A stretch of 42,372 nt of DNA from Oscillospiraceae bacterium (GTDB taxonomy: Bacteria; Bacillota; Clostridia; Oscillospirales; Oscillospiraceae). The stretch spans positions 1-42,372 of the forward strand of contig JAFTYM010000017.1 of the NCBI GenBank assembly GCA_017461585.1. The letters run 5' to 3'. Below the pieces are notes generated by a model, which did not search any database, was not told the origin of the DNA, and worked only from the letters and a program-made list of their open reading frames with translations. Below are positions 1,577 to 40,970 of this stretch, piece by piece (the stretch's first letter is position 1; each line of letters starts with the position of its first letter). The position numbers and the translations under genes were made by a program.

Positions 1577-4500
1577 ATGGAACGAAAATATAAGGCGTTT
1601 ATAAGCTACCGCCATGCGGACTTAGACTCTGCCGTAGCAAAAACTCTTCACACTCTTATAGAGCAGTACCGCATCCCGAAAGCGCTCCGCACAGACGGCG
1701 AAAAGAAAATGGGCATTGTTTTCCGCGACGAAGAGGAGCTGTCTGCCACAAACGACCTTACCGACAAGATATACACCGCTCTTGATAATTCAGAACACCT
1801 TATCGTCATCTGCACAAGAGCAACGCTCCAGTCTCCCTGGGTCACAAAAGAGGTAGAGCATTTTCTCACAAAGCACGATCGCGACAAAGCTCACATCATC
1901 TTGGCTGACGGTGAACCTATGGAGGTATTTCCCCGTCCGCTGACCCACCACGAACTTGAAAACGGCATGGTAGAGGTAACGGAGCCTATGGCTGTGGACG
2001 TGCGTGCCGAGGATATCCCAGCCGTTAAGAAAAGACTTAAATCGCAGATACTGCGTCTTTTTGCCGCCATGCTGGGCTGCCCTTACGACGCCCTTGCCAT
2101 GCGTGAGCAGCGCAGAAAAAGACAGCGTTTCGCCGCTGTTATGTCTGTAGTCCTTGCCATCGCCGTCGGTTTTTCCACGGTTCTTCTGATCAAAAACCAT
2201 CAGATAGACCGCAAAAACGAGGAACTGGACAGCGCCAATACCGCCCTCGAGGCAAAAAACGAGGAACTGGACAAAAAGAACTCCGAGCTGGATCAGAAAA
2301 ACGAGGAGTTGGAAGAGAAAAACGCCGAAGTCCTTCAGCGAGAATCCGAACTCCTGACGGCAAACTCCACCGAAGCTTACCGCGAAGGCAATAACTACAC
2401 CGCCATTGCAGACGCATCTCTTGCTCTGCCTACGGAAAACGACCCTCGCCCCTATTACGCTCCCGCAGAAGCTGCTCTTCTCACCGCCCTCAGTCCCTTT
2501 GACAACGAGGTAAATTATGTAATGAGAGATACGGTTCTGGAACAGACCACACCTGTGGAAAACTTCCGCATCTCAGCAGACGGCACAAAACTTGCCACAA
2601 TCGACCTATACAGCGTTGTCACCATCTTCGACACCGTCTCAGGTGAGGTTCTGAACACCATTCAGCTTAACACAAATACTGTTTATTACTCCTTCAGCAA
2701 TATCCACATGCTCCCCTGTGACGCCATAAACGGCTTCATCATCTTTGACGGCTACACCATTGCAGCCATCTCCTTTGACACATGCGACATCCTGTGGTCG
2801 CATGACGCCCTCCGCTCTGTGTCAGACTTTCTGTGTCCTTCAGGCGACTCAAGTATATTCGCATACGTCCGCACCTATTTTGATGAGACTGACGAATGTA
2901 CAAACTATGAGCTGGTATTTCTCTCGGGCGAAACAGGCAAGACCGTCGCCACATCTACATTTATAGACGGAAGCGTCTACAGCAAAGATAACTATCTCTC
3001 AACATATTTCACAGGCTTGGTCTGCCAGGGAATGTACAATGGACGCTTCTCTTCTGACAATAACACCTTTGTGACCAGCTATTTCTCCCGCAGCGAAGAC
3101 GACGTTTACACCATCCACTACTCCATTACAGATTTAGCTGCCGGCACATCGAAAGACATCTGCAGCTATGACGTGGATGATTATTATTTCTCAGAAGAAG
3201 TTTATTTTCTGTTCTTTGACACTGACAACACAATAATCTCCGTCCGAAAGCACTCCGACTCAGACTACGTTATGCAGGCAGAGCGCATTAACATAAACAG
3301 CGGCAGAATATATTGGCAGCTCCCCTTCCCGAAAGCAACTCTGTTTTCATACACAAGTTCAGAAATAGAAAATATTTTTGGCTTCACCTCAGGCGCAACA
3401 GGCACTACCGCATACGTGATTTTAAACGACTTTGTATACAGCTTTGACACCCTGACAGGTGAATATATCTCCTCAAGCAAAATCAGCAGCAACGTAGTTG
3501 ACGCATACATCGTAAACGGCACCTTTGTCTATGCCCTTGACAACGGACACTACAGCGAAGCATTTCTCTCCTCATACGGAATAAACGACATGGGTGACGC
3601 CATAGATCTGGGTGATATTCTCCGTATGCGCATATGGAACGGCGGTCCAACTGCTCTCCACGGCAGCGCCGAGTATTCTGACGCAGGCTATATTGCCGCT
3701 GTCCCCGCAGACAACTCTCACGCTGTTGTAATCAAGCGAGTAAGCGTGATAGAGGAACTGTTCCCTGCTGAGTATACAGGGCTTAACGATGACAGCTCAT
3801 ACTTCTCAGACAATCATCCATTCCTTCTGGAAGACAGCACCCTCGCCCTGGGACCTTTCTACAGGGACAACACATATTTCTTTAAAATAACAGACTCCGA
3901 CACAGGTGAATTCATCCGCGAATTCCCCCTGTCGAGCACCTTTGGTCTGGATAATATGCTCTTCACCCCCGACGGAAAGCACATCATAAATACCGACGAT
4001 TACGGCAATATCACCGTATACAATGAGGACAACACCTCTGAAGTGCTATACGAAACAGAGTATACTCTCTTTACTTATGCAGACCTTTTCATCTGCGACC
4101 TTCCCGCGCTCAGCGCCTCCTCAGTTTTGTCAGAGACAAAGGATGTTCTCTCCGCTGTATGTACGGAAGATACACTTATTCTCTGGACAAACGGAGAAAA
4201 CCGCCGCGAGATACCGCTTCCCGATGATCTGACATGGCTCTATAAGGATGACTCCAGCGCCACATTCCTAATGGAAATCGCAAGCGACGGAAGCGTCCTG
4301 ATATCCGGCTTTACAAACGATGACCACGATATCGACCGTCTCGCCGCCTACAGCACAGTAAGCGGCAAATGGAATTATATCGATACTGCCGATATCCCTC
4401 TCTGCGTCGGAAGTCTCTATTTCTCCGATACATCATCGACCATGGCGCTGTTGGACGACAACGGTATCGTACACATGTGTGACACTTCGGGAAAAGAGAC

Positions 4501-4933
4501 CGTCTCCTTCTCTCTGCAGCTGCCCACAAACTCCATTTCCCAGTTGGATCTTATTCTGGACGACACCTATATCATGGTCAAAACCACCGATCTGCAGGTT
4601 CTGATCTATGACGCGGCTACAGGCGAGATAGTTTACAGAGAGACAGATGTCTCCCTTTCCATGGTTAAGCTGTATCCCTACTATGACAGCGCAAATAACA
4701 GACTGTACATCGCCACGGAGTCCAACACCTCCGTCTGCGCAGGTCTCTGTATAGACATCAGCAGCTGGACAACGCTGGCACGCATTAACGGCCTTATCTA
4801 TTTCAATGAAGATACCCTCGAGATGTTCCGCGTTGCCTATATCAAAGAGTCCTACGCAACAGGCATCGTAACACAGTCCCTCCCCTCTACAGAAAAGCTT
4901 GCATCTCTTGCAAGAGAATTTCTGGGAATATAA
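1577..4933 (+). CDS. TIR domain / transmembrane / coiled-coil / beta-propeller protein
   Basis: 1118 residues, preceded by AAGGAGG. Residues 4-125 form a TIR domain (start KYKAFISYRHADLD; SPWVTKEVEHF with W88 and E92, the spacing of the glutamate that is catalytic in NAD-cleaving TIR domains). A membrane helix at about 185-205 follows a basic KRQR stretch. Residues 210-262 form a coiled coil built on repeated KNEELD-type heptads. A short TPR-like segment (about 265-300, GNNYTAIADASLAL) leads into about 800 residues with WD40/quinoprotein-like repeats (FDTVSGEVLNTI, YDAATGEIVYRE), probably outside the cell. The layout suggests a membrane receptor that couples extracellular sensing to a cytoplasmic TIR signal or NADase. 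No Thoeris partner is nearby. The ligand and the enzymatic activity are unproven. Confidence 0.8.
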   Translation: MERKYKAFISYRHADLDSAVAKTLHTLIEQYRIPKALRTDGEKKMGIVFRDEEELSATNDLTDKIYTALDNSEHLIVICTRATLQSPWVTKEVEHFLTKHDRDKAHIILADGEPMEVFPRPLTHHELENGMVEVTEPMAVDVRAEDIPAVKKRLKSQILRLFAAMLGCPYDALAMREQRRKRQRFAAVMSVVLAIAVGFSTVLLIKNHQIDRKNEELDSANTALEAKNEELDKKNSELDQKNEELEEKNAEVLQRESELLTANSTEAYREGNNYTAIADASLALPTENDPRPYYAPAEAALLTALSPFDNEVNYVMRDTVLEQTTPVENFRISADGTKLATIDLYSVVTIFDTVSGEVLNTIQLNTNTVYYSFSNIHMLPCDAINGFIIFDGYTIAAISFDTCDILWSHDALRSVSDFLCPSGDSSIFAYVRTYFDETDECTNYELVFLSGETGKTVATSTFIDGSVYSKDNYLSTYFTGLVCQGMYNGRFSSDNNTFVTSYFSRSEDDVYTIHYSITDLAAGTSKDICSYDVDDYYFSEEVYFLFFDTDNTIISVRKHSDSDYVMQAERININSGRIYWQLPFPKATLFSYTSSEIENIFGFTSGATGTTAYVILNDFVYSFDTLTGEYISSSKISSNVVDAYIVNGTFVYALDNGHYSEAFLSSYGINDMGDAIDLGDILRMRIWNGGPTALHGSAEYSDAGYIAAVPADNSHAVVIKRVSVIEELFPAEYTGLNDDSSYFSDNHPFLLEDSTLALGPFYRDNTYFFKITDSDTGEFIREFPLSSTFGLDNMLFTPDGKHIINTDDYGNITVYNEDNTSEVLYETEYTLFTYADLFICDLPALSASSVLSETKDVLSAVCTEDTLILWTNGENRREIPLPDDLTWLYKDDSSATFLMEIASDGSVLISGFTNDDHDIDRLAAYSTVSGKWNYIDTADIPLCVGSLYFSDTSSTMALLDDNGIVHMCDTSGKETVSFSLQLPTNSISQLDLILDDTYIMVKTTDLQVLIYDAATGEIVYRETDVSLSMVKLYPYYDSANNRLYIATESNTSVCAGLCIDISSWTTLARINGLIYFNEDTLEMFRVAYIKESYATGIVTQSLPSTEKLASLAREFLGI

Positions 4934-29202: not shown

Positions 29203-29353
29203 CGGAATAACCTTCCAAAAACCTTGATTTTTCAAGGCTTTCATGCGTTTTTCTCATGCATCACATTACCGCGTAAAAGTGCCATGTGCAGAAACGCGCC
29301 ATGATATTATATCAGTACATTTTTCAAATTTCAATACTATTTGATAAAAAAGT

Positions 29354-29381
29354 CCGCCGCAGAAGCATATTTCTGCGGCGG
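29354..29381 (-). terminator. Terminator of the molybdoenzyme operon
   Basis: CCGCCGCAGAA (29354-29364), loop GCATAT, TTCTGCGGCGG (29371-29381); on the minus strand a T-rich stretch follows. It lies just after the asrB-like stop. Confidence 0.85.
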
Positions 29382-29387
29382 TTTATA

Positions 29388-30176
29388 TTAGTCCAGTAAC
29401 TCTTTTGCCTTTGTGTAGTTGAACACGGGACCTTCAAGGCAGACATAAGTCTCATTTATCTTGCAATGTCCGCACTTACCTACGGCGCAGGACATCTTAC
29501 GCTCAAAGGATACCCAGATCTTCTCCTCAGCAGCACCGCACTTTACACATTCCTGTGCTGCGATGTGCATCATGGCAGGCGGACCGACGATGACTACGTT
29601 GTAGTCCTCATAGTCTGCAAAGGGCACATCACTTATGCACTGTGTGACAAAGCCGCTCTTAAAGCCTTCCATTTCACCTGTATCAAGGCAGTACTGTGTG
29701 TTGAATCTGTCCTTAAACTTCTCCAGCTCTTCTGTGAAAAGAACAGCATCAGGAGCCTTAAAGCCTGCCATAAAGCGGACTTCAGGACATTTTTCAGGAT
29801 TATCATAAAAATAGTTAAGCGTTGTGCGCACAGGGCACATACCCGTACCGCCGGAAATGACGATAAGAGGCTTGCCCTCAAAGCTTTCAACAGGGAAGCT
29901 GTTTCCGTAAGGTCCGCGCATGAACAGATTATCACCCGCAGCAAGACCGAACATCCCGTCCGTCAGGCGACCGACTTTTCGGATTGTAAACTCAACATAT
30001 CCCTCGCCTCTTCCGCTGACGGAAATTGGAGCTTCGCCGATTTTGGGAATGGACAGCATATAGAACTGACCGTGCTTTGACTCATCACTGCATTCAACGC
30101 GGAAGGTATACTCCGCCTGTGTCTCTTTCAGAACTCTAAGTATCTTATGAGGTTTTGGAAGCATGATATTTTCCAT
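29388..30176 (-). CDS. asrB: AsrB-like NAD(P)H:flavin / [2Fe-2S] electron-transfer subunit
   Basis: 262 residues, the length of anaerobic sulfite reductase subunit B. The N-terminal half is a ferredoxin-reductase FAD domain (APISVSGRGEGYVEFTIRKVG, RGPYGNSFP), the second half the NAD-binding domain (VISGGTGMCPVRTTL, VVIVGPPAMMHIAA), and the C-terminus a cysteine cluster SCAVGKCGHCKINETYVCLEG for [2Fe-2S]. In Asr systems it takes electrons from NADH and passes them via AsrA to sulfite reductase AsrC. Here no AsrC is present; the partner is presumably the molybdoenzyme. Its ATG shares one base with the asrA stop (TAATG). Confidence 0.88.
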   Translation of the reverse strand: MENIMLPKPHKILRVLKETQAEYTFRVECSDESKHGQFYMLSIPKIGEAPISVSGRGEGYVEFTIRKVGRLTDGMFGLAAGDNLFMRGPYGNSFPVESFEGKPLIVISGGTGMCPVRTTLNYFYDNPEKCPEVRFMAGFKAPDAVLFTEELEKFKDRFNTQYCLDTGEMEGFKSGFVTQCISDVPFADYEDYNVVIVGPPAMMHIAAQECVKCGAAEEKIWVSFERKMSCAVGKCGHCKINETYVCLEGPVFNYTKAKELLD

Positions 30177-31816
30177 TATTTTGCCTCCTTTGCTGTATCC
30201 AAAGCTTCGGTAAAGCCGTTTACGACCTCTGCAAAGTCAATATCCTTGGGACAACGGGATGTACATCTTCCGCAGCCCACGCACATATTTTCCTTGCCGA
30301 AGCGCTTTTTAAAGTCATAGGTCTTATGGAGAACCTTAAAGCGCATATTTGCACCCGCTGTTTTTCTGGCTCTGCCGCCGCCTGCTGTGAGTGTGAATGT
30401 GTCCAGCATGCAGGATGACCAGACTCTTCTTCTCTCTCCGTCCACGCTTGTCTCATCGTAGATAACGTCTACTGTGTCAAAGCATGCACATGTGGGACAG
30501 ACTGTGTTGCAGCCGCCGCAGCTGATGCACTTTTCATCAAAGCTGTTCCAGTATTCAAGACCGCTTGCCAGTTTGACATCGTCCTTGCCCTCTACCTTGG
30601 GCATATTTACCGCCTTTTTGTTCTCCGTCACAAACTTGGGTGCAAACTCTGTCTCCTCGCACCCATTAAACAGAGCTGCAAACTCGCCGTCCTTTACGAG
30701 AACGCTATTGGTTTCGCCAAGTCTTAAAGCCATTGCGTAATCCTCGCAAACATTGCTGCCTGCTGATACGCAGAAGCAGTTTTCAAAGCTCTCCGCGCAC
30801 TCAAGCATTACAAACTTGACCTTGTTTCTAAGTCTTGCGTAATATACATCGCCGTGATTTCCGTTTTCGAGGAAAATGCTGTCAAGGCGGCGTACTGCGT
30901 TAATATCACAGGGATGAGCAATGATGATAATGCCCTTGTCATCTTTCAGTTCGCTCTCGCGGCTCTCACTTTCCGTGAAGTAGATCATCGTCTGCATAAC
31001 GGGGTAGTAAACTTCCTTTGCGGAAAAGTCTGACTGTCGGTCATAAACTATCTCGGAAACGCTTTTAATTTCACCGAAGCGGACGATCTCCTTGCCGTTT
31101 CTTCCGAATTTTCCTGTGAGACGCGGTGCATATACCTTATAGTCCTTGGAAAGGCGCTCAATAACCGCATCAAACTGTGCGTCGGTAACGGAATAAGCCT
31201 TTTCCGCATGCTCCTGACCTTCCAGCTCTGTGAGAAGCGCAAGATCCATTTTAAGGAAGCCACGGAGAAGCGCTGCTGCGCCCTTATAAAAATCAGTTTC
31301 AGCATATTTTTCAATATCGGCGCAGAATCTATCTGCCCAGCATAAAAGATGCCCGCTCAAAAATGCCTTAGCATCATCAATATCATCAAGCTGTGCCATA
31401 AACTGCAGCTCTATGGAAATGTGATCCTCCATCATTTCAGAAGGTACGTTTTCCAGCGCAAGACCATGCTGCGCATATATCTTCTTTACCTCTTCCCAGG
31501 GCTTCTGCATTACAAGAGGCTTTTCGCCCATGTATACAGACTCATAGGGGAAGGCTGCATTTCCCTCGTGGCTGCCTGCACCGAGGAATACCTTTGAAAA
31601 ATCCGCAGCCAGCTCATCAAGGCTGTTTTCGCCGCTGTTTTTCAGGTAAGCCGCGATGGCATCATAGCCCTTCTGCATCTCGGCATCCCCGCAGTTTTCG
31701 GAAAATGTCATTCCCTTAAGAGCGCCAAGAAGCTGTGCATCCACCTCTTTATAGAAAAGACGCTGTAAAAAGGTGTAAAAGTCTTTTCTGCCTGTCATTA
31801 TTTCTGAAGTTTTCAA
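30176..31816 (-). CDS. asrA: TorD-type chaperone fused to AsrA-like iron-sulfur protein
   Basis: 546 residues from TTG 31816, which overlaps the upstream stop as TTGA. Residues 1 to about 200 are a TorD/DmsD chaperone domain (KDFYTFLQRLFYKEVD, MEDHISIELQFMAQL, GHLLCWADRFC), which normally binds the leader or apoform of a molybdoenzyme. The remainder is AsrA: KEVYYPVMQTMIYFTES, IIIIAHPCDINAVRRLD, and two [4Fe-4S] motifs CISCGGCNTVCPTC and CVGCGRCTSRCP near the C-terminus. AsrA alone is about 340 residues. The fusion ties the electron-transfer arm to maturation of the molybdenum subunit. Confidence 0.88.
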   Translation of the reverse strand: MKTSEIMTGRKDFYTFLQRLFYKEVDAQLLGALKGMTFSENCGDAEMQKGYDAIAAYLKNSGENSLDELAADFSKVFLGAGSHEGNAAFPYESVYMGEKPLVMQKPWEEVKKIYAQHGLALENVPSEMMEDHISIELQFMAQLDDIDDAKAFLSGHLLCWADRFCADIEKYAETDFYKGAAALLRGFLKMDLALLTELEGQEHAEKAYSVTDAQFDAVIERLSKDYKVYAPRLTGKFGRNGKEIVRFGEIKSVSEIVYDRQSDFSAKEVYYPVMQTMIYFTESESRESELKDDKGIIIIAHPCDINAVRRLDSIFLENGNHGDVYYARLRNKVKFVMLECAESFENCFCVSAGSNVCEDYAMALRLGETNSVLVKDGEFAALFNGCEETEFAPKFVTENKKAVNMPKVEGKDDVKLASGLEYWNSFDEKCISCGGCNTVCPTCACFDTVDVIYDETSVDGERRRVWSSCMLDTFTLTAGGGRARKTAGANMRFKVLHKTYDFKKRFGKENMCVGCGRCTSRCPKDIDFAEVVNGFTEALDTAKEAK

Positions 31817-32430
31817 AGCTCTGCCACCCCTTTCGTCTTGTCGCTGTCCTGCGGCAGCACATCTATCCATTTATCTCTTCTCAGTATATAGCGCACGCCC
31901 GGCTTGTTGCCGAAGTCGCGCAGCGTGTATATATTTTCTTCTCCTGCTTCGCTCAGAAGCTTCGAAACCTCGCTGTCGGGGTCGTTTATATCTCCTACGT
32001 GCAGCGCTCTGCCTGCACAGTTTTTAACACAGGCAGGTGTCTCGCCTTCAGCTCGTAAGCTTTCACATATATTGCACTTGTCCATAACGCGCAGCTCTGC
32101 GTTGAAGGTGTTGACCTTGTAAGGACATGCGCCCTCACATGTGCGGCAGCCGATGCACACATTGCGGTCAATTCTCACAACACCGTCTGACGGGTCCTTG
32201 TAGCATGCGCCTGTGGGACAAACCTCCGCACAAGTGGGATTTTCGCAATGCTGGCACATAGCGGGAAGAAAATACATCTGAATGTCGGGATATGTGCCGA
32301 TGGGACCTATCTGCTTTACTTCATTTCGGCATGCGCCCAGCGCAACGCCGTTTTCCTGCTTGCAGGATATCTGACATGCACGGCAGCCGATGCAGCGGTC
32401 TAAATCTATTACAAATGTTATCTTTTTCAT
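31813..32430 (-). CDS. DmsB-type ferredoxin subunit
   Basis: 205 residues. Four [4Fe-4S] cysteine groups are visible: CIGCRACQISCKQENG, CQHCENPTCAEVCPTGAC, CIGCRTCEGACPY and CNICESLRAEGETPACVKNC. This is the electron-transfer subunit of DMSO-reductase-family enzymes. It has no membrane anchor. It starts three bases after the molybdoenzyme stop and ends overlapping the chaperone fusion, so stoichiometric production is likely. Confidence 0.9.
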   Translation of the reverse strand: MKKITFVIDLDRCIGCRACQISCKQENGVALGACRNEVKQIGPIGTYPDIQMYFLPAMCQHCENPTCAEVCPTGACYKDPSDGVVRIDRNVCIGCRTCEGACPYKVNTFNAELRVMDKCNICESLRAEGETPACVKNCAGRALHVGDINDPDSEVSKLLSEAGEENIYTLRDFGNKPGVRYILRRDKWIDVLPQDSDKTKGVAEL

Positions 32431-32433
32431 ATC

Positions 32434-35100
32434 TTACACCTCGCTGCTCGTAAGTTCGGGCACGCTGTCGGAATATTCGGGCAGCCACTTCTTAAAGTCG
32501 GACGGCTTTGTCCAAACGCCCTCGGGAGCACCTTCTGCAGGACTTATCTTTACAAGATAGCCGCGGAGCGTGTATGTACCCACAACACGGTTGTAAGGAC
32601 CTTCGGAGCGTGAGAGCATGTTGACATTCATCTCCTGCCATCCGTGAGTATCGCTGTTAAGGTTCTCGGGATTCCAGAAACGCTCCATATAAACAGTACC
32701 GGGTCTTATTGCTGTCGTGACAGACGCCTTTGCGCGTATCTTTCCGCGCTTGGACTCTACCCAAACCCACTTTCCGTCTTCGATGCCGTATTTTGCAGCG
32801 TCTGCAGGCGTTACCCAAATCTCGGGAACAGGGTATATCTCACGGAGCCAAGGCACATTTCGAAGTGTGCTGTGATGATAGTAGGGCACACGTCCGTTGG
32901 TCATAACAAGGGGATATTCCTTTGCTGTCTCGGGGTCGGACACAGGACTCTCTGCAGGCTCGTGATATTTCGGCAGGGGATCGTAGTCCTCAGAAGCAGG
33001 TGGCAGCGCCTTTCCCGTATATGGAAGGCCTGTTCTTCCAAGAGTAATAAAGCCCTCACCGTAAGCCTCACACTTTTTGCTGCCGGTCATAAAGCCGCGG
33101 GGCTTTCCGCTTTCGTCAAGTTCCCTGTACAGGTAATATGTGCGGAACTCCTCTTCACTGGCATATTCGTAAGGCGCCTCGTTGGAGAGGGTCTTAAACT
33201 CCTCCCATGTCATTCCTATCTTGCTTGTAAAGTGCTCCATACACTCTGTCATGCTGTCAAAGTTTGTGTAGTTATGTCCCATAAACTCGGGGTCATAGCT
33301 CTTTTGCATAGTCTCATGACCGTGCTTTGCCAGATATTTGCCGATAAGGCACCATACAAGAGCCTCGTCAATAGTCTCGTAGAGATGTGCCGCAGGCTGG
33401 CGGATGGTAACTGTATTCAGCGCTTTCTGGACGTAGTTCGTCTCCAGCCACTCTGTTGTGGGAAGCAGAACATCGCAGTAAGCGGAGAAGGATGTGTAGT
33501 TTGTGTACATGTGAACCATCAGGTCAAGGTTTCTCATCGCCTTTACCCAGCGGTCACCGTTTGCCAGAACAGCCAGCTTGTTGCCGCTTCTGTCGATCCA
33601 CGCCTTGATGGGATAGGGATTTGCATTTTCCATCGCCTCAAGGCAGGAGGGAACATGGGCAGTCTGCCACATGATAAGACCCTTATACTCAATTCCGCCG
33701 AGACGCTTGCAAAGCTGCTCATAGGGCAGAGCCTCGTTTGCAAAGGGGATGACCTCAACGTCAATAGGCTTTTTTGCACCGAAGCGCTGCATAAGAGAGC
33801 CGGGACGTTCAACGTTGCCTAAAAGCATATCGATGATGTTTGCTCCCATGGCAGCCTCAACAGAGTTGGGGCTTTGGTCTGTTGCAACACCGATGCAAAG
33901 TCCACCGGGAGTATTTTCTGCATAGAGCTTTACAGCCTCTTCAATCTTATCCTCGGGCAGCCAGCAGACCTCTGCGCCCTTGGCAAGTGTCCACTCGGAA
34001 ACTCTGTCAACAAGCATCCTGAATCCCGTCTTGTATGTAACGCCGTCTATCTCGTATGTACCGTCAAGTTCGACATCATAAGCATCATTCCACGGATATT
34101 CCAGAGGCTGAGCGGAATTTGTCTTCTTATCCCATACCATAAATGTATCAGCTTCACCGGGGCCGTTGCCGCGGGCTGCTCTCCAGCACTCTTTAGTCTC
34201 GGTGCTCACAAGGTAGGGCAGGTTTGTCCACTTCATGACAAATTCCTCGTCATAAAGCTTATTTGTAATTATGTAGTTTATCCATGTAAGCTGCAGAGCA
34301 ACGTCTGTTCCGGGACGGACAGGCAGCCACACATCAGCCTTTGCCGCATCGGGAGTCATACGGGGATCCACAACAATGGACTTGACGCCTTTTGCGCGCA
34401 GTTCTGCCAGCTGTCCGCCGCCCTGACCTGCACAGGACATAGAGGGAGCAACGCCCCAAAGGCAGATAGCCTTCATGGGTGTGTCCTCATGATAGTATAT
34501 CTCCAGCGCATTGGAGTCTGCGATACTGGAGTCGTCTCCGCCGTACATCAGGTTGTATGTGAGAAGTCTGGGCAGGTAGCACTGGGCACTTCCCGGCTCA
34601 AACCAGTTGGGCGTTCCGAAAAGATTGCAGAATCGGGGAATACTTGTAAACTGGGGATTTCCGCCGCCGCCTGTAGAACACATTACGCTCTCTGCGCCGT
34701 ACTTTTCGCGAATATCCATGAGCTTTACGGCAACATAATCCAGAGCCTCATCCCATGAGACACGCTTCCACTTGTTTTCTCCGCGCTCACCCACGCGCAT
34801 CATGGGATATTTGATGCGGTTGGGGTTGTAGAGAGCCTGAATTCCCGAAAGGCCCTTGGAGCAAAGTCTGCCCTTGCTCATCTTGTTTTTCGGGTCACCT
34901 TCCAGCTTTACAACTCTGCCGTTTTTAATAGTCGCAATAACGCCGCAGTTTGCAATGCAGGCACGGCAGGCTGTGCGTATCTTTACGACCTCGTCTGCTT
35001 TTTCCTGTACTGCTTTCGCAGATTCAACAAGACCGGGACATCCGCACACAGCTTTAAGCTCAGCACTTATGCCCGCAGCCTTCATAAAAATATCTTTCAT
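32434..35100 (-). CDS. Molybdopterin oxidoreductase (DMSO reductase family), cytoplasmic
   Basis: 888 residues. C45, C48, C52 and C80 (TACRACIANCGV ... LCSKG) form the N-terminal [4Fe-4S] motif. GPGEADTFMVWD, KADVWLPVRPGTDVALQLTW, and the C-terminal molybdopterin-binding domain (TNGRVPYYHHSTLRNVPWLRE, ITVPEIWVTPADAAKYGIEDG-like) follow. There is no twin-arginine signal; a 40-residue leader (MKDIFMKAAGISAELKAVCG onwards) precedes the cluster. C174 (SAQCYLPRLL) lies where the metal ligand could be, but this is unproven. Sequence style recalls the uncharacterised reductases and catechol dehydroxylases of gut Actinobacteria. The substrate is unknown. Confidence 0.85.
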   Translation of the reverse strand: MKDIFMKAAGISAELKAVCGCPGLVESAKAVQEKADEVVKIRTACRACIANCGVIATIKNGRVVKLEGDPKNKMSKGRLCSKGLSGIQALYNPNRIKYPMMRVGERGENKWKRVSWDEALDYVAVKLMDIREKYGAESVMCSTGGGGNPQFTSIPRFCNLFGTPNWFEPGSAQCYLPRLLTYNLMYGGDDSSIADSNALEIYYHEDTPMKAICLWGVAPSMSCAGQGGGQLAELRAKGVKSIVVDPRMTPDAAKADVWLPVRPGTDVALQLTWINYIITNKLYDEEFVMKWTNLPYLVSTETKECWRAARGNGPGEADTFMVWDKKTNSAQPLEYPWNDAYDVELDGTYEIDGVTYKTGFRMLVDRVSEWTLAKGAEVCWLPEDKIEEAVKLYAENTPGGLCIGVATDQSPNSVEAAMGANIIDMLLGNVERPGSLMQRFGAKKPIDVEVIPFANEALPYEQLCKRLGGIEYKGLIMWQTAHVPSCLEAMENANPYPIKAWIDRSGNKLAVLANGDRWVKAMRNLDLMVHMYTNYTSFSAYCDVLLPTTEWLETNYVQKALNTVTIRQPAAHLYETIDEALVWCLIGKYLAKHGHETMQKSYDPEFMGHNYTNFDSMTECMEHFTSKIGMTWEEFKTLSNEAPYEYASEEEFRTYYLYRELDESGKPRGFMTGSKKCEAYGEGFITLGRTGLPYTGKALPPASEDYDPLPKYHEPAESPVSDPETAKEYPLVMTNGRVPYYHHSTLRNVPWLREIYPVPEIWVTPADAAKYGIEDGKWVWVESKRGKIRAKASVTTAIRPGTVYMERFWNPENLNSDTHGWQEMNVNMLSRSEGPYNRVVGTYTLRGYLVKISPAEGAPEGVWTKPSDFKKWLPEYSDSVPELTSSEV

Positions 35101-35245: not shown

Positions 35246-36688
35246 TTACGGAAGGATCGCTCCGCTCTCTAAAAGCTTCTCGCGAAGCTCTTCATATTTC
35301 ACATCGCGAACCTCAATTCCCTGCTGCACAGCAAGTGCCGCCGCAATACCTGCAGCATGACCGAAGCACATGCAATGGGGGATAAGGTTAAAGAATTCGG
35401 AGAACTCGTGGTCGGAGGAGAATGCGCGGCAAGCGACAAGGAGTCCTTCCACACCCTTGGGCAGAAGCGCTCTGTAGGGCACATATGCCTTGGGATTTAC
35501 AAGAGATCTGTCGCCGCGGTCATTGTCTGCAAATACCGCAATAGTATCCTCAAAGGGTTCCGTTCTCTCAAGGTCATTCTCATCGAGGTAATATTCGCCG
35601 ATAATACGAAGTCCGCCGGATGTGCCGAGCTGCGGACAGGACAGCATGATAAAGCTGTTTTCAAAGCCGGGCATATACTTTTTCATAAGCTCCCATGTCT
35701 TAACAGCTGTCTTTCTGCCCTCAACATCGAGGTATGTCATCTCCTCGGGGTCTGTCTGCTGCAGAGAGCCGATAAGGCGGTGGAGCCATACAACGCCCTT
35801 CTGATGATCCAGAAGTCCGCGGGAGAAGAAGGGTCTGCCGCCCTCTTCCATGATTTTGCCGAATATTTCCTTCATCTTTTCGGGATCGGCATCATTTACC
35901 TCGTCGTACTTATCAAGGTCAACACCGCAGATCCAGAACACCCAGCCAAACTGAGCAATACGTGAACCCGGACGCATATAGTCTATCTTCTCAATGTCAA
36001 GATCGCGGATAATGTCACCGTCGCCTGTGCAGTCGATAACGACCTTTCCCAAAATTGCCTGACGGCCTGCCTTTGTCTCGACCACAACGCCCTTAACGCG
36101 GTTGCCCTCCATAATGGGCGAAGTCACCCATGTGTGGAGCATGAGCTCAGCACCCGCTTCAAGCACCATTGTGTTAAGCTCATCTTTTGCAATTTCGGGG
36201 TCAACAACGGCGGTATACAAAACTACATCCTCGTCGTTTTTATCTTTACGGACATAGAAGTGACGCATATTCGCCTTGAGATATTTGTCTACATATTCGT
36301 TATTTCCCTTACCCCAAACTTCTTTAGGAGGGAAACATGCGCCGTCTCTTGCGTAAAGGCGCTCAATAAGCTCCTGACAGAATCCGCCGATGCAATGCTC
36401 GCCGTAAATATTCGCAAGGTTGGGGATGATGTTTACAAGTCCGCCTGTTGCCATTCCGCCCAGATGACCGTAACGCTCGATAAGTATTGTCTTTGCTCCG
36501 CTGCGGGCAGCATGTACAGCAGAAGCCACACCGCCGGGGCCTCCGCCGACAACTATAACATCTGCCTCACGTACCACAGGAATTTCCCTTGCGCCTTCCT
36601 CAATTGTTTTGCTTCCGTCAAGAGTCTTTCTCTCATATTCATGGGGCATGTCATAAACAGATACTACGCCTTTGCCGTATTTTGCCAT
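35246..36688 (-). CDS. FAD-dependent oxidoreductase (FAD_oxidored family)
   Basis: 480 residues. The FAD-binding Rossmann motif is VIVVGGGPGGVASAVHAARSG with the ribose-binding E71, followed by GHLGGMATGGLV, a family-specific loop; the second nucleotide contact is VIDCTGDGDI. The C-terminal HCMCFGHAAGIAAALAVQQG completes the FAD site. Such enzymes act on unsaturated or amino substrates using a bound flavin. A 40-residue N-terminal extension precedes the Rossmann fold. It has its own consensus promoter and terminator. The neighbouring redox genes suggest a common pathway; its substrate is not recognisable. Confidence 0.88.
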   Translation of the reverse strand: MAKYGKGVVSVYDMPHEYERKTLDGSKTIEEGAREIPVVREADVIVVGGGPGGVASAVHAARSGAKTILIERYGHLGGMATGGLVNIIPNLANIYGEHCIGGFCQELIERLYARDGACFPPKEVWGKGNNEYVDKYLKANMRHFYVRKDKNDEDVVLYTAVVDPEIAKDELNTMVLEAGAELMLHTWVTSPIMEGNRVKGVVVETKAGRQAILGKVVIDCTGDGDIIRDLDIEKIDYMRPGSRIAQFGWVFWICGVDLDKYDEVNDADPEKMKEIFGKIMEEGGRPFFSRGLLDHQKGVVWLHRLIGSLQQTDPEEMTYLDVEGRKTAVKTWELMKKYMPGFENSFIMLSCPQLGTSGGLRIIGEYYLDENDLERTEPFEDTIAVFADNDRGDRSLVNPKAYVPYRALLPKGVEGLLVACRAFSSDHEFSEFFNLIPHCMCFGHAAGIAAALAVQQGIEVRDVKYEELREKLLESGAILP

Positions 36689-36748: not shown

Positions 36749-36876
36749 TTTCTCTGCACAAACTGCATTAAATTGTACACATTTTTATCTTTCTCCTGTT
36801 TCTTCGTTGCACAGTTGTTTTGGTCATGTTAAGCTAACTGTATACATCTAATTATAAGTAACGGGGAGTGTTTTAC

Positions 36877-38190
36877 ATGTATTATCCCAAAAGCAAAGCG
36901 GAGCTGCAGGAGATCATAAGAGCCGCCCGAGAAAAAGGAACGCCCCTTGTTCCCGTAAGCTCAGGCACACCTCATATCCACGGCATCTCCGCAAACGAAA
37001 AGGCCGAGACCTTAGACATGAGCAAGATGAATAAAATCATGAAAATCAGCCGTGACAACCGCTACGCCAGAGTCGAAGTCGGCGTTACCTTCGGGGAGCT
37101 TATTCCCGAAATGAAAAAGAACGGTCTTCGCCTCAACGCACCCTTTCTTCCCCGCGCAAACAAGTCTGTAATAACAAGTGCGCTGGAGCGCGAGGCTGTG
37201 CTTGTTCCCAAGTATCAGTACGACTACACAGACCCCCTTCTCACCATGGAAGTCGTATTCGGAACAGGCGACGATTTCCGCACAGGTTCTGCCTCAGGTC
37301 CGGGTCCTTACGAAGAGCTGAAGGCAGACATGGTTTCCCCCTGGGGACCCGGTACTGTTGACTATCAGCGCTTTATCATGGGCGCACAGGGCACCATGGG
37401 CATCGTCACATGGGGTACTCTCAAGGCCGAGCTCATGCCCACAAAAAGCAAGTTGTTCTTTGTTGAAGCTGAGGAACTGTCCGTTCTCACAAAATTCACA
37501 AACGAGCTTCTTCGCTACCGCACATTGGACGACTGCATCATCTTAAACTCCGTAAACCTTGCAAAAGCCTTCTCCGACACCGCGGAGGAAGAACAGGATA
37601 TTCTTAAACGCGCAGCTCCATGGACATTTATCTGCCGTATCTGCGGCTTTGACCGCTATCCCGAAAAGCGCATCGAGATCTATGAGAGCTATTTTGCAGA
37701 CATCTGCCAAAAGCACGGCATTGAATTTAAGTCCGCCCCCTTCGGAAACCTTGAGCTTGCCGCAAAGATCGACAGTATGCTTTGGGATTGCGACAGACGC
37801 GAGACTTACTGGAAAGTCAAAAAAGGCGATGTCCGAGAGATACTTTTCCTGACACCGCCAAGCAAAGTACCCTATCTGACAGAAACTCTCAAAAACGCAG
37901 TTTCCGCCCATCCTGCAGAAGACGTGGGCATAACCCTCCAGCCACAGGTTCAGGGCAGAGCTTTCCGAATAGAGTGCGACCTGTTCTGCAAATCATCAGC
38001 AGACGTTGAAGAGCTTGCATTTAACGCCGAGACCGGGCTTTTGAAAAACGGAGCATACTTTGACAGACCCTACAGCAATATATGTCAGGAGGTCTATTCC
38101 ATCGACCCCGTCGGCACAGAAAGTCTCAGAAAAATCAAAAACATCTTTGATCCGGATGGAATTTTCAATCCGGGCAAACTCTGTTTTTAA
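36877..38190 (+). CDS. FAD-binding oxidoreductase (PCMH/GlcD-type), first of the trio
   Basis: 437 residues from ATG 36877 (GGGGAG nine bases upstream). The FAD-binding half has VPVSSGTPHIHGIS, RYARVEVGVTFGELIPEMKKNGL, and GAQGTMGIVTWGTLKAELMP; the C-terminal half ends in the typical IKNIFDPDGIFNPGKLCF. This is the glycolate/D-lactate dehydrogenase-like flavoprotein group, which oxidises 2-hydroxy acids or related substrates. It lies 14 bp before the CCG iron-sulfur gene and reads in the same direction as the second flavoprotein. Confidence 0.85.
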   Translation: MYYPKSKAELQEIIRAAREKGTPLVPVSSGTPHIHGISANEKAETLDMSKMNKIMKISRDNRYARVEVGVTFGELIPEMKKNGLRLNAPFLPRANKSVITSALEREAVLVPKYQYDYTDPLLTMEVVFGTGDDFRTGSASGPGPYEELKADMVSPWGPGTVDYQRFIMGAQGTMGIVTWGTLKAELMPTKSKLFFVEAEELSVLTKFTNELLRYRTLDDCIILNSVNLAKAFSDTAEEEQDILKRAAPWTFICRICGFDRYPEKRIEIYESYFADICQKHGIEFKSAPFGNLELAAKIDSMLWDCDRRETYWKVKKGDVREILFLTPPSKVPYLTETLKNAVSAHPAEDVGITLQPQVQGRAFRIECDLFCKSSADVEELAFNAETGLLKNGAYFDRPYSNICQEVYSIDPVGTESLRKIKNIFDPDGIFNPGKLCF

Positions 38191-38204
38191 GGAGGTGCGG
38201 CAAA

Positions 38205-39437
38205 ATGGCAGATTTAAAGAAATTTGAATACACAATGGACTCCTGCAATCACTGCGGTCAATGTAAGTGGATACTCTCTCCCAAGATGCACGGCTGGGAC
38301 TTTTCTCAGATTTGCCCCATCCATGTTCACTTCGGCTTTGACGCCTACTCCGGACAGGGTCTTATAAACATTGCAAAAGAGGTCATGAACGGCACTCTGC
38401 AGTACGGCGACGGTCTTGAGGAAATGCTGTACACCTGCACAGCCTGCGGCGCCTGTGACGTGAACTGCAAAAACGTCCGCGATATGGAGCTTTTGGACAC
38501 TATTTTGGAGCTTCGTGCACATTGCACAGAGCATGGCGCACTCCCCGAAGCCCACAGAAAAACAGCAGAAAACATCGAAACCTCTCACAACATTTACGGA
38601 CTTTCACACGAAAATCGTTTTTCCTGGCTGCCCGATAGCTACAAGGATGACGAGGACGCAGACACAGCACTCTTTGTCGGCTGCTCTGTATACAAGCATC
38701 CCGAACCCGCTTTGGCTGCCATAAAAATTCTCCGCGCAGGCGGTGTGAAGTTCAAGCTCCTGCACGAGGATGAATGGTGCTGCGGCAGTACGCTCTGGCG
38801 CACAGGTCAGAACGAAATGGCAGCAGCTCTCGTTTCAAGAAACAGAGAAATCTTCAAAAAGAACTGCATCAAAACCGTTATCACAGCCTGTGCAGAGTGC
38901 TTTGGCTCTTTCAGAGCAGGTTATACACGCTTTGGCGAAAACGAATTTGAAGTCCTGCATATAACACAAGTAGCGGCTGACCTTCTCAAAACCGGCAGGC
39001 TCACCGTAACAAAAAGCCGTGAGTCCATGCGTGTTACATATCACGACCCCTGCATGCTGGCAAGACTTTCAGAACCCTATATTCCCTGGGAAGGCGTCAT
39101 CCACCCCTACGGTCTCCATGAACCCGAAAAGCAGTGGCGCCGCGGTGAACACGGCGAATATCACGCTCCACGCGAGATTCTTAACGCTCTGCCGGGCATA
39201 GAACTCGCAGAGATGCCCCGTAACCGTGAGGACGCTTTCTGCTGCGGAGCAAACGCAGCAGGCATTGACCCCGAATTCAGTAAACAGACAGCCGCAGAGC
39301 GCCGCCGCGAAGCCGCATCCACAGGCGCTGACGCAATTGTCTCCTGCTGTCCCTTCTGCCGCGATTCTTTGGAAAACGGCAGCGAATATCCCATGCGGTA
39401 TCTTGATCTCACAGAGCTGCTGGCAGAAATGCTGTAA
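38205..39437 (+). CDS. CCG-type iron-sulfur protein (GlcF/HdrD-like)
   Basis: 410 residues, with AAGGAGG upstream. Two [4Fe-4S] motifs: C14, C17, C20 with C37, and C78, C81, C84, C88 (CTACGACDVNC). Two CCG domains follow: C160, CC192-193 with C229/C232 (DEWCCGSTLW, TACAEC) and C283, CC346-347 with C382/C385 (DAFCCGANAAG, SCCPFC). This is the electron-carrying subunit type of glycolate oxidase, LutA and heterodisulfide reductase D. It sits between two flavoproteins and probably takes electrons from both. Confidence 0.9.
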   Translation: MADLKKFEYTMDSCNHCGQCKWILSPKMHGWDFSQICPIHVHFGFDAYSGQGLINIAKEVMNGTLQYGDGLEEMLYTCTACGACDVNCKNVRDMELLDTILELRAHCTEHGALPEAHRKTAENIETSHNIYGLSHENRFSWLPDSYKDDEDADTALFVGCSVYKHPEPALAAIKILRAGGVKFKLLHEDEWCCGSTLWRTGQNEMAAALVSRNREIFKKNCIKTVITACAECFGSFRAGYTRFGENEFEVLHITQVAADLLKTGRLTVTKSRESMRVTYHDPCMLARLSEPYIPWEGVIHPYGLHEPEKQWRRGEHGEYHAPREILNALPGIELAEMPRNREDAFCCGANAAGIDPEFSKQTAAERRREAASTGADAIVSCCPFCRDSLENGSEYPMRYLDLTELLAEML

Positions 39438-39449
39438 AGGAGGATAGTC

Positions 39450-40970
39450 ATGAGTTTATCAAGAGAAATCTATAACGAGCTTGCAGCCATCGTCGGCAGC
39501 GCTCATATAAGCGACAAGCCCCATATTTTAGCAGGCAACCGCGCAAAAACTCCCGATTATCCTATGGAATACAAAAGCGCAGAAGCTATCGTCCGTCCCG
39601 GAAGCGTTGAAGAGCTTCAGGCGATTGTAAAGCTCTGCAATAAATACGGAATCATCTTCGCCCCCATGGTATCGGGCGTTATGCCCACGGCTTTTGCCAG
39701 CCGTCCCAACACGATCATTATTCAGCTTTCAAGAATGAACAGAATCGTTGAGATAAACGAGGAAGACCGCTATGTTGTCATCGAGCCCGGCGTCCGTCAT
39801 GTCCAGCTCTACCCTGAGCTTCGCAAGCGCGGCTTCAGTTACACCGCAGCCTCCGTCGGTCCCGGCGGCTCCGTTCTGGCAAACTTCACCAGCACATCCG
39901 GTGACCACCACACGCAGCACGGAAACTCCCGTGCAAACCGTTATCTTCTAGGTGTTGAGATGATCCTGCCTGACGGTGAGATAATCAGAACAGGCTCTCT
40001 GCAGACCGGAAGCGGCTGGTTCTGCCCTGACGGTCCCGGCCCCGGTCTTCGCGGCATTGTAAAGGGCTACAACGGCAACCACGCTCAGTTCGGCATAATC
40101 ACGCGCATCGCTATTGCCATTGACCCCTGCAAGGGGCCAGCCGAGCCAGAAATGAGCGGCATCAGCCCCCATCACACCGTCCGCATGAACACCCCCTGCA
40201 GCAAGGTCATTATTTATAAATTTAAAGACATCGACCATCTCCGCGATGCCATGATAAAAACAGGAGAAGCCGAGATCGGCTCTACTGTTATCAAATATTT
40301 CTATCTCCCCGCAACACTTATGATGACAGACTCTGCCAACGATTTCTGGAAAATGTGGACAGATGAGCACAAGGCAGAGCTTACCATGCCCCTTATCGTC
40401 CACCTTGCCACAAGGTCCGAGGAAGAGATGAAATACGAGGAGACAATTCTCCACGATATCGCTGCAGAGCTGGGTGGTGTGCGCATTAAGCGCGAGTATG
40501 AAGAGTGGTGGGAAAACCACATGGACTTCTTCATGATCGTAAGCAGACTTCAGAGCGTTCTCCGTCTCGGCGGAGGTTGGGCACCCATAAAACTGGCATC
40601 AGACTCTGTAGCTCACATCTGCGAGGTCGGCAAAAACATCAACAACTTTATCCACGACTTTACTGACACAGGCAAAATTTTCGATGCTCCCGAGGATTAT
40701 CAGATAATCCCCATGGAATACGGTCACTTTGCCCACATCGAGCTTCTCATCATGTGGGACAGAACTGACCCCAACGTCATGAAGGGCGTCGGAGAATTCC
40801 GCGCAGCCAGCCGTCAGACAGATATCGACAATCACTTCCACGCAGAGATGCCTGTTTTCTTAAGTCCCGGCTCCATGCAGATCGGCCCTCTTTACAGCAA
40901 CTTCCACATCTGGCTGAAACAGCTCAAAGAGGCTTTTGACCCCAACAACGTGGCAAATCCCATGATGTAA
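39450..40970 (+). CDS. FAD-binding oxidoreductase (VAO/PCMH-type), second of the trio
   Basis: 506 residues, AAGGAGG before the ATG. FAD-binding motifs are VRPGSVEELQAIVKLCNKYG, APMVSG, RYVVIEPGVRHVQLYPEL and SVGPGGSVLANFTSTSGDHH, followed by VEMILPDGEIIRTGS; the C-terminal ending is LKEAFDPNNVANP. The length and cap domain resemble the 4-cresol dehydrogenase / vanillyl-alcohol oxidase group more than GlcD. The first flavoprotein, the CCG protein and this enzyme are consecutive with gaps of 12-14 bp, one transcription unit. The substrate is unknown. Confidence 0.87.
   Translation: MSLSREIYNELAAIVGSAHISDKPHILAGNRAKTPDYPMEYKSAEAIVRPGSVEELQAIVKLCNKYGIIFAPMVSGVMPTAFASRPNTIIIQLSRMNRIVEINEEDRYVVIEPGVRHVQLYPELRKRGFSYTAASVGPGGSVLANFTSTSGDHHTQHGNSRANRYLLGVEMILPDGEIIRTGSLQTGSGWFCPDGPGPGLRGIVKGYNGNHAQFGIITRIAIAIDPCKGPAEPEMSGISPHHTVRMNTPCSKVIIYKFKDIDHLRDAMIKTGEAEIGSTVIKYFYLPATLMMTDSANDFWKMWTDEHKAELTMPLIVHLATRSEEEMKYEETILHDIAAELGGVRIKREYEEWWENHMDFFMIVSRLQSVLRLGGGWAPIKLASDSVAHICEVGKNINNFIHDFTDTGKIFDAPEDYQIIPMEYGHFAHIELLIMWDRTDPNVMKGVGEFRAASRQTDIDNHFHAEMPVFLSPGSMQIGPLYSNFHIWLKQLKEAFDPNNVANPMM

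Follow-up and report, generated by a model that had tools for sequence, protein, structure and literature searches.

We describe a four-gene operon in 42,372 nucleotides (nt) of DNA from an Oscillospiraceae bacterium (contig JAFTYM010000017.1), the stretch that we call the window. The operon lies on the minus strand (positions 29388-35100), and its four open reading frames (ORFs) encode MoA, a catalytic subunit of the dimethyl sulfoxide (DMSO) reductase family with a predicted bis-molybdopterin guanine dinucleotide (bis-MGD) cofactor; FeS, a ferredoxin subunit; a fusion of the chaperone TorD with AsrA; and the flavoprotein AsrB. We propose that these proteins form a soluble, cytoplasmic NAD(P)H-driven reductase in which electrons would pass from AsrAB to FeS, MoA, and an acceptor; we put the probability of this reading at roughly 0.7. 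AsrB would oxidize NAD(P)H with its FAD and then its [2Fe-2S] cluster, the [4Fe-4S] clusters of AsrA would pass the electrons to the four-cluster FeS subunit, and FeS would feed the [4Fe-4S] cluster and the bis-MGD molybdenum (Mo) or tungsten center of MoA, where the acceptor would be reduced. The TorD half of the fusion would mature MoA. We infer the electron path, NAD(P)H as the donor, the reductive direction, and the acceptor from sequence; gene anatomy and comparative genomics support the proposed soluble NAD(P)H mechanism well.

MoA (888 amino acids; 32434..35100, minus strand, as for all four genes) matched PF04879, PF00384, and PF01568, each over its cut-off, and hence has the domains of the DMSO-reductase (bis-MGD) family. 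It has an N-terminal [4Fe-4S] motif (C45-x2-C48-x3-C52...C80), and alignment placed its C174 at what we take to be the position of the metal ligand. No match to TAT_signal, the model for twin-arginine translocation (Tat) signals, was found in MoA, even at E values up to 1. FeS (205 amino acids; 31813..32430) is a DmsB/NrfC-like four-cluster ferredoxin subunit. Its 16 cysteines, corresponding to four [4Fe-4S] clusters, were invariant in all nine aligned rows (eight operon rows and L093, the locus of a relative with a Tat signal that is described below). L090 was omitted from alignments A1, A3, and A4, including the one used for this column count, and was kept elsewhere. The fusion was listed as an ORF at 30176-31870, in which a TorD/DmsD-type chaperone domain (residues 25 to 214) is followed by AsrA (TIGR02910, residues 225 to 558; 373.6 bits, with a cut-off of 323.15); the AsrA domain occupies 30197..31198. 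Translation probably starts at a TTG codon at 31816, giving a gene at 30176..31816 and a protein of 546 amino acids, since a ribosome-binding-site-like sequence, AGGGGTGG, lies upstream and the codon overlaps the FeS stop codon in TTGA (by eye). With this start, the intergenic distances are +3, -4, and -1.

AsrB (29388..30176), a flavoprotein of the FAD/NAD(P)H and [2Fe-2S] type, scored 331.5 bits with TIGR02911 (cut-off, 288.6), and its C230, C235, C238, and C246 did not vary in any of the 10 aligned rows, eight of them Mo linked and two asrC linked. Past asrB is a terminator-like hairpin with a T run (29346..29381, minus strand; stem 29381-29354, with 11 pairs, 8 of them G-C, followed by ACTTTTTT), and a second terminator-like hairpin (35227-35201) lies between moA and the upstream gene. 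A hairpin scan of the region found 10 sites, against 6.4 ± 2.7 in shuffled sequences, and the longest stems were those at these two loci. Because hairpins flank both ends, the transcription unit probably consists of these four genes. A preliminary description of the stretch had named a DMSO-reductase-family enzyme without a Tat signal, a four-cluster ferredoxin, an AsrB-like flavoprotein, and a single closing terminator, all of which are borne out here. The tight coupling of the genes that it reported also stands, with the gaps corrected to the values given above.

The order of genes for MoA, FeS, TorD, AsrA, and AsrB was kept in all nine genomes in which a close MoA was detected together with AsrAB, an association that exceeds chance. 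Across these genomes MoA was 58 to 62% identical to that of the window. The TorD-AsrA fusion occurs only in the window and in a contig of a metagenome-assembled genome (L012; JAJQAC010000019.1), the one locus confirmed in a search of genome contigs for related loci. TorD and AsrA are separate, in the same order, in the other seven (G318, G210, G382, G1143, G1165, G1168, and G1123). Hence, the fusion noted in the preliminary description is real in the window, with TorD and TIGR02910 both present, and is not a general trait. No asrC was found beside the recurring genes in any of the nine loci; a single 19-bit match in L045 was, by eye, an ATPase-like ORF. A moaA gene over its cut-off lay at most ~7 kb from the operon in five of the nine genomes (G318, G210, G1165, G1123, and that of L012), and the window genome has two copies over the cut-off. 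Regulators adjoining the operon were confirmed with Pfam at L089 (PucR HTH) and at L091 and L093 (LysR) and were assigned by eye at other loci.

Since AsrA and AsrB both pass curated cut-offs, they could be a displaced sulfite reductase module that still serves an AsrC encoded elsewhere. However, no AsrC over the family cut-off was found in the window genome, which is 79% complete (best score, 26.4 bits, against 324.1), the gene order is kept in nine genomes, and two of these (G318 and G210) hold complete, separate asrABC sets besides the Mo operon. We consider the chance that AsrAB is such a displaced module close to negligible. Sulfite reductase as the identity of the operon was likewise rejected, because AsrA and AsrB are over their cut-offs but AsrC is lacking.

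Few genomes carry the operon. Among 295 genomes of the order to which the window belongs, MoA at an E value of ≤1e-60 was found in the window genome only; in family f44, it was found in 6 of 206. In the phylum, 57 of 398 genomes had some MoA match at 1e-40, and identity exceeded 36% only in the window genome and in G1002, a Desulfitobacterium-like genome. The genome searches scored the best first-look candidates of each genome (two to four), which limits the absences reported here. A plasmid search for a close MoA relative matched 1170 records, all at <60% identity; among the 30 matches listed, identity was 24 to 29%.

AsrC and a membrane anchor had both been described as missing from the operon, and this extends to the window genome, in which neither AsrC nor an NrfD anchor was found. 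NrfD was present in none of the nine operon genomes, compared with 15 in G1002, in a genome-wide search that covered NrfD and not other anchor families, such as DmsC (PF04976). The only AsrA found in the window genome is the operon copy, and eight of the nine operon genomes had no TatC. Absences in the window genome alone are weak evidence because of its 79% completeness; of the others, six reach a completeness of 96% or more with no more than 4% contamination, and a seventh has 100% completeness and 6% contamination (these figures cover all but the genome of L012). The nine-genome set as a whole and the missing signal peptide support the prediction that MoA stays in the cytoplasm. Since TatC is lacking in eight of nine genomes and a relative with Tat signal and anchor exists elsewhere, a cytoplasmic NAD(P)H-linked complex is the form that we propose.

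A match to the fusion protein was found in 95 of 391 genomes of the class (108 match rows). We inspected all AsrA loci scoring at least 238 bits, the best 44 of the 108 rows, and asrC adjoined asrB in 38. The remaining six were four Mo operons (window, G318, G210, and G382), one contig ending in asrB (L118), and one lone asrA (L046, on G082 contig C11), which had neither asrB nor asrC within the 16 kb covered and whose product is 50% identical to the window AsrA. Below 238 bits there were 64 rows, among which inspection covered only L142 of G070 and, in L045, the TorD stretch from G382; three of the 64 were TorD-only matches. When 50 AsrA rows were placed in a tree, the nine Mo-linked sequences grouped in a single clade apart from the 41 others, with support of 100/99 and in 100% of 200 bootstrap trees, and the two fusions, those of the window and L012, paired at 100/100. 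The simplest reading would be one recruitment of AsrA, followed by one fusion. All 15 cysteine columns of the window AsrA were kept in the nine Mo-linked rows; among the 40 other rows, 14 of these columns were fixed throughout, and one was kept in 39 (L142 was left out of this comparison and kept in the tree). Eight more positions were fixed in the Mo-linked set and present in ≤10% of the others; these may be interface changes. L142 itself (G070 contig C29) has an AsrA/AsrB-like pair with no asrC in the 11 kb taken, and its neighbors by eye are HdrA/MvhD-like, FdhB-like, FocA-like, and formate-tetrahydrofolate-ligase-like ORFs. AsrAB-like modules may therefore serve further partners.

MoA of G1002 is 58 to 59% identical to that of the window and has a TAT_signal match (26.5; cut-off, 22.7). 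Past moA, its locus encodes FeS, a DmsC/NrfD anchor, and TorD, followed by two ferredoxin-type proteins that by eye resemble NapG (the Fer4 protein) and NapH (the Fer4_5 protein). In the 19 kb covered at this locus, neither AsrA nor AsrB was found. Genes flanking the operon encode an FAD_binding_2 reductase, whose start is Tat-like, and an FMN_bind protein. The AsrAB form would be the counterpart of this Tat-exported, presumably quinol-linked complex, in which an anchor and two additional ferredoxins are found in place of AsrAB. The natural reading is that the two forms share a catalytic half and differ in the electron-input half, which would draw on the quinol side in one form and on NAD(P)H in the other. 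N-termini of six of the nine MoA proteins aligned to the G1002 Tat leader (e.g., NRRDFLKSTAITG with NKKDFLSATNITG), with 0 of 2000 shuffles as good for each. None of the six has the twin arginine, with KK in four, SK in one, and RS in one; they are close kin, not independent results.

One history that we advance tentatively, at odds below even, is that a Tat-exported, quinol-linked complex of the catechol dehydroxylase type was internalized once in Clostridia. Its signal would have decayed, leaving the leader recognizable in six of nine proteins, and AsrAB from sulfite reductase would have replaced the anchor and the extra ferredoxins. The chaperone would later have fused to AsrA in one sublineage, joining cofactor loading and donor docking. 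If true, this single internalization would have changed a dehydroxylase that served respiration into one that serves fermentation, as a sink through which NADH reduces organic hydroxyl compounds. We built a quick MoA tree of 47 rows, with partial references, and a careful tree of 24 of those rows, without 2vpw. MoA of the Tat form (L093) fell inside the AsrAB set in the careful tree (94/90) and at another spot in the quick tree (82). We dropped the view that the AsrAB-linked MoA proteins are one clade with a proven direction of exchange, since the two trees put L093 inside at different spots. Because the trees fail to separate the AsrAB-linked MoA proteins from the Tat form, the exchange may have run in either direction and may have happened more than once, and the anchor may have been regained in the G1002 line.

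The solved protein closest to MoA is acetylene hydratase (2e7z), at 223 bits, compared with 184 for 2vpw, named as a thiosulfate reductase. MoA grouped with acetylene hydratase and not with 2vpw in the quick tree (SH-aLRT, 98). Acetylene hydratase also requires a reductant for activation. MoA could on these grounds be a nonredox enzyme of that kind, with AsrAB merely keeping its metal reduced. Both proteins have a cysteine at the metal-ligand position, but MoA is 161 amino acids longer and has electron partners, and its CRACIANC aligns with CQSCDINC of the hydratase, so that isoleucine stands where the hydratase motif has aspartate. This aspartate is catalytic in acetylene hydratase, so that hydratase activity was rejected as the function of MoA. 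A hydratase would also have no need of a ferredoxin with four clusters and an NAD(P)H flavoprotein encoded in fixed order, and we regard the nonredox alternative as very improbable. Acetylene hydratase is also the closest relative of the catechol dehydroxylases, according to a passage in an eLife 2020 paper that places C. ljungdahlii and Desulfitobacterium among the carriers of putative catechol dehydroxylases. We suggest that the acceptor is most likely a catechol-like or other organic hydroxyl compound, a substrate class to which we give a little less than an even chance.

Several observations weigh against these readings. For the mechanism, G382 has no moaA over the cut-off, G1123 has two TatC proteins, and an AlphaFold prediction of MoA, made from two sequences, was discarded (pLDDT, 30; pTM, 0.24). 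For the acceptor, the window operon itself contains no aromatic gene. Nearness to the catechol dehydroxylases was judged by the published acetylene hydratase proxy, with trees that hold no Dadh, Hcdh, or Cadh sequences. The score and the quick tree place MoA with that proxy, whereas the careful tree left MoA, the acetylene hydratase group, and L073/L077, two rows that fell with 2vpw in the quick tree, unseparated. For the history, no trace of a Tat leader is visible at the N-termini of the window, L012, and L045 proteins, for which 173, 1498, and 213 shuffles out of 2000, respectively, were as good, so that we dropped the claim that every MoA keeps such a trace. The nine AsrAB-linked MoA proteins formed one clade in 2% of 200 bootstrap trees, and the best tree held to that clade had a p-AU of 0.146 (not rejected). 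In view of the 2% support, we lowered our odds for a single internalization slightly.

The lack of separation in the careful tree also leaves room for the same soluble NAD(P)H complex with a different acceptor, namely an S- or N-oxide or an inorganic sulfur compound (thiosulfate, polysulfide, or sulfoxide). AsrAB is known from sulfite reduction, and the best NCBIfam model for MoA is the thiosulfate reductase PhsA. However, the PhsA score is 289 bits against a cut-off of 694, the bisC S/N-oxide model gave 123 bits against 1017, and 2vpw fell outside the MoA branch in the quick tree. The flanking ORFs, viewed by eye only, showed no sulfur gene that recurs from locus to locus. Membership of MoA in PhsA or DMSO reductase was rejected because of these scores; the NrfD-type anchor of PhsA/PsrA is also lacking. 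A 2017 paper (PMC5640608) describes, in a passage on sulfur-metabolism genes, a Clostridium ljungdahlii operon discussed below and suggests sulfoxide metabolism. On balance, we think a sulfur or N-oxide acceptor unlikely.

The genomes themselves offer some observations on aromatic compounds. The window genome encodes a pyrogallol-transhydroxylase-like large subunit (L152:10468-14005, on G000 contig C15; 697 bits to 4v4c) with an adjacent 281-amino-acid Fer4_11 protein and a second large-subunit-like protein (L003:1147-3966, on C21; 460 bits), which suggests that this bacterium may handle polyphenols. In G1143 (L154, on contig C179), the operon flank encodes, by Pfam, URO-D, MFS, an OYE/FAD reductase, a BcrAD activator, two HGD-D subunits, and an AMP-ligase, and by eye acyl-CoA-dehydrogenase- and Etf-like ORFs; it resembles an aryl-lactate/phenylpropanoid reduction cluster. 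The flanks of G1143 and G1002, single cases each, would fit a phenylpropenoate-type setting.

We compared the operon with known systems. C. ljungdahlii CLJU_RS12535-12555 has five genes, including those for a DMSO-reductase-family oxidoreductase and a flavoprotein 41% identical to Salmonella AsrB; expression was up with syngas and H2/CO2, and the function was given as unknown, possibly sulfoxide metabolism, in the passage concerned (PMC5640608). The G1168 locus appears to be this operon, judged partly from gene number and content, and its next MoA match after the operon copy scored 103 bits. Both it and the window have a Mo enzyme and an AsrB-like flavoprotein, whereas TorD and AsrA are separate in G1168 and fused in the window. 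The published passage on the operon makes no comparison with other genomes or with a Tat counterpart (PMC5640608). Among the passages of the searched literature that bear on the question (including PMC12771579, PMC11574389, and PMC10949509), none proposes AsrAB as a donor to a bis-MGD enzyme, with the exception of one in PMC5640608. The preliminary description did not recognize the system as a described one; what appears to be its five-gene form in C. ljungdahlii was mentioned in 2017 as uncharacterized, so that it had already drawn some notice.

The Eggerthella lenta dopamine dehydroxylase cluster (DadhABC and DadhD-I) is presented in the relevant part of PMC11887054 as Tat exported and membrane linked. 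Like the window operon, it has a bis-MGD catalytic subunit, an FeS subunit, and a TorD-like chaperone, and the G1002 homologue shares with it the anchor and two further ferredoxin-type proteins (PMC11887054). The window enzyme, in contrast, has neither Tat signal nor anchor and has AsrAB instead. Catechol dehydroxylases of the Gordonibacter type resemble the window enzyme in having no Tat signal, a small FeS partner, and predicted solubility; the catalytic subunit lacks an Fe-S motif according to a review, whereas MoA has one, and the passages on these enzymes mention no NAD(P)H module (PMC7028382, PMC11574389).

MoA could also work in the opposite direction, oxidizing or hydroxylating a substrate while AsrAB reduces NAD(P)+. 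Flavin/Fe-S modules of the sulfhydrogenase type are reversible in principle, and the bis-MGD family includes dehydrogenases, such as ethylbenzene dehydrogenase, which matched MoA. However, the genes of the G1002 counterpart are arranged like those of Dadh, which is a reductase, and the C. ljungdahlii operon was up with syngas and H2/CO2, conditions under which reductant should be plentiful (PMC5640608). We judge the oxidative direction to be quite improbable.

The window operon shares AsrA and AsrB with AsrABC and has the Mo enzyme and FeS in place of AsrC, with an AsrA clade of its own. Sulfhydrogenase 1 (9nez), presumably from Pyrococcus, also has a beta/gamma electron module that is homologous to AsrAB (3.3e-25 and 3.7e-41), so that a donor module with different catalytic partners has precedent. 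There it drives a hydrogenase and not a Mo enzyme; the window AsrA and AsrB scored under the NCBIfam sulfhydrogenase equivalog cut-offs, and the four-gene operon has no hydrogenase subunits. A further arrangement, at L113, L132, and L134, combines asrABC with a Mo protein of ~700 amino acids (53 to 67 bits to MoA) and an FeS protein of ~140 amino acids. AsrC is kept there, and these loci resemble the C. ljungdahlii asrABC that a passage in PMC5640608 places beside a candidate assimilatory nitrate reductase.

AsrAB is usually taken as a marker of sulfite reduction; here it would mark a Mo reductase, so that annotation by AsrA and AsrB alone would mislead. With the predicted complex, fermenting bacteria could dispose of electrons on organic molecules, plant phenols possibly among them. 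The proposed NAD(P)H route apparently extends to C. ljungdahlii, an acetogen amenable to culture and modification. A pair of Mo enzymes that are 59% identical, one exported and anchored and the other putatively cytoplasmic and NAD(P)H driven, would be a natural experiment on a change of compartment and electron source. The operon also proposes a concrete NAD(P)H route for the soluble catechol dehydroxylases, whose donor goes unnamed in the passages concerned.

Other genes of the window are mentioned for completeness. Just upstream of moA on the same strand, beyond the second hairpin, is a gene for a 480-amino-acid FAD_oxidored protein (35246-36688). Two further stretches (36868-39437 and 39450-40970) encode, in tandem, an FAD_binding_4/FAD-oxidase_C protein, a CCG-domain Fe-S protein, and a second FAD_binding_4 protein, which together are glycolate/lactate-dehydrogenase-like. 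At 1577-4933, the window encodes a protein of 1118 amino acids with an N-terminal TIR_2/ThsB_TIR match over the cut-off and beta-propeller matches mostly under it, which may have a role in defense or signaling.

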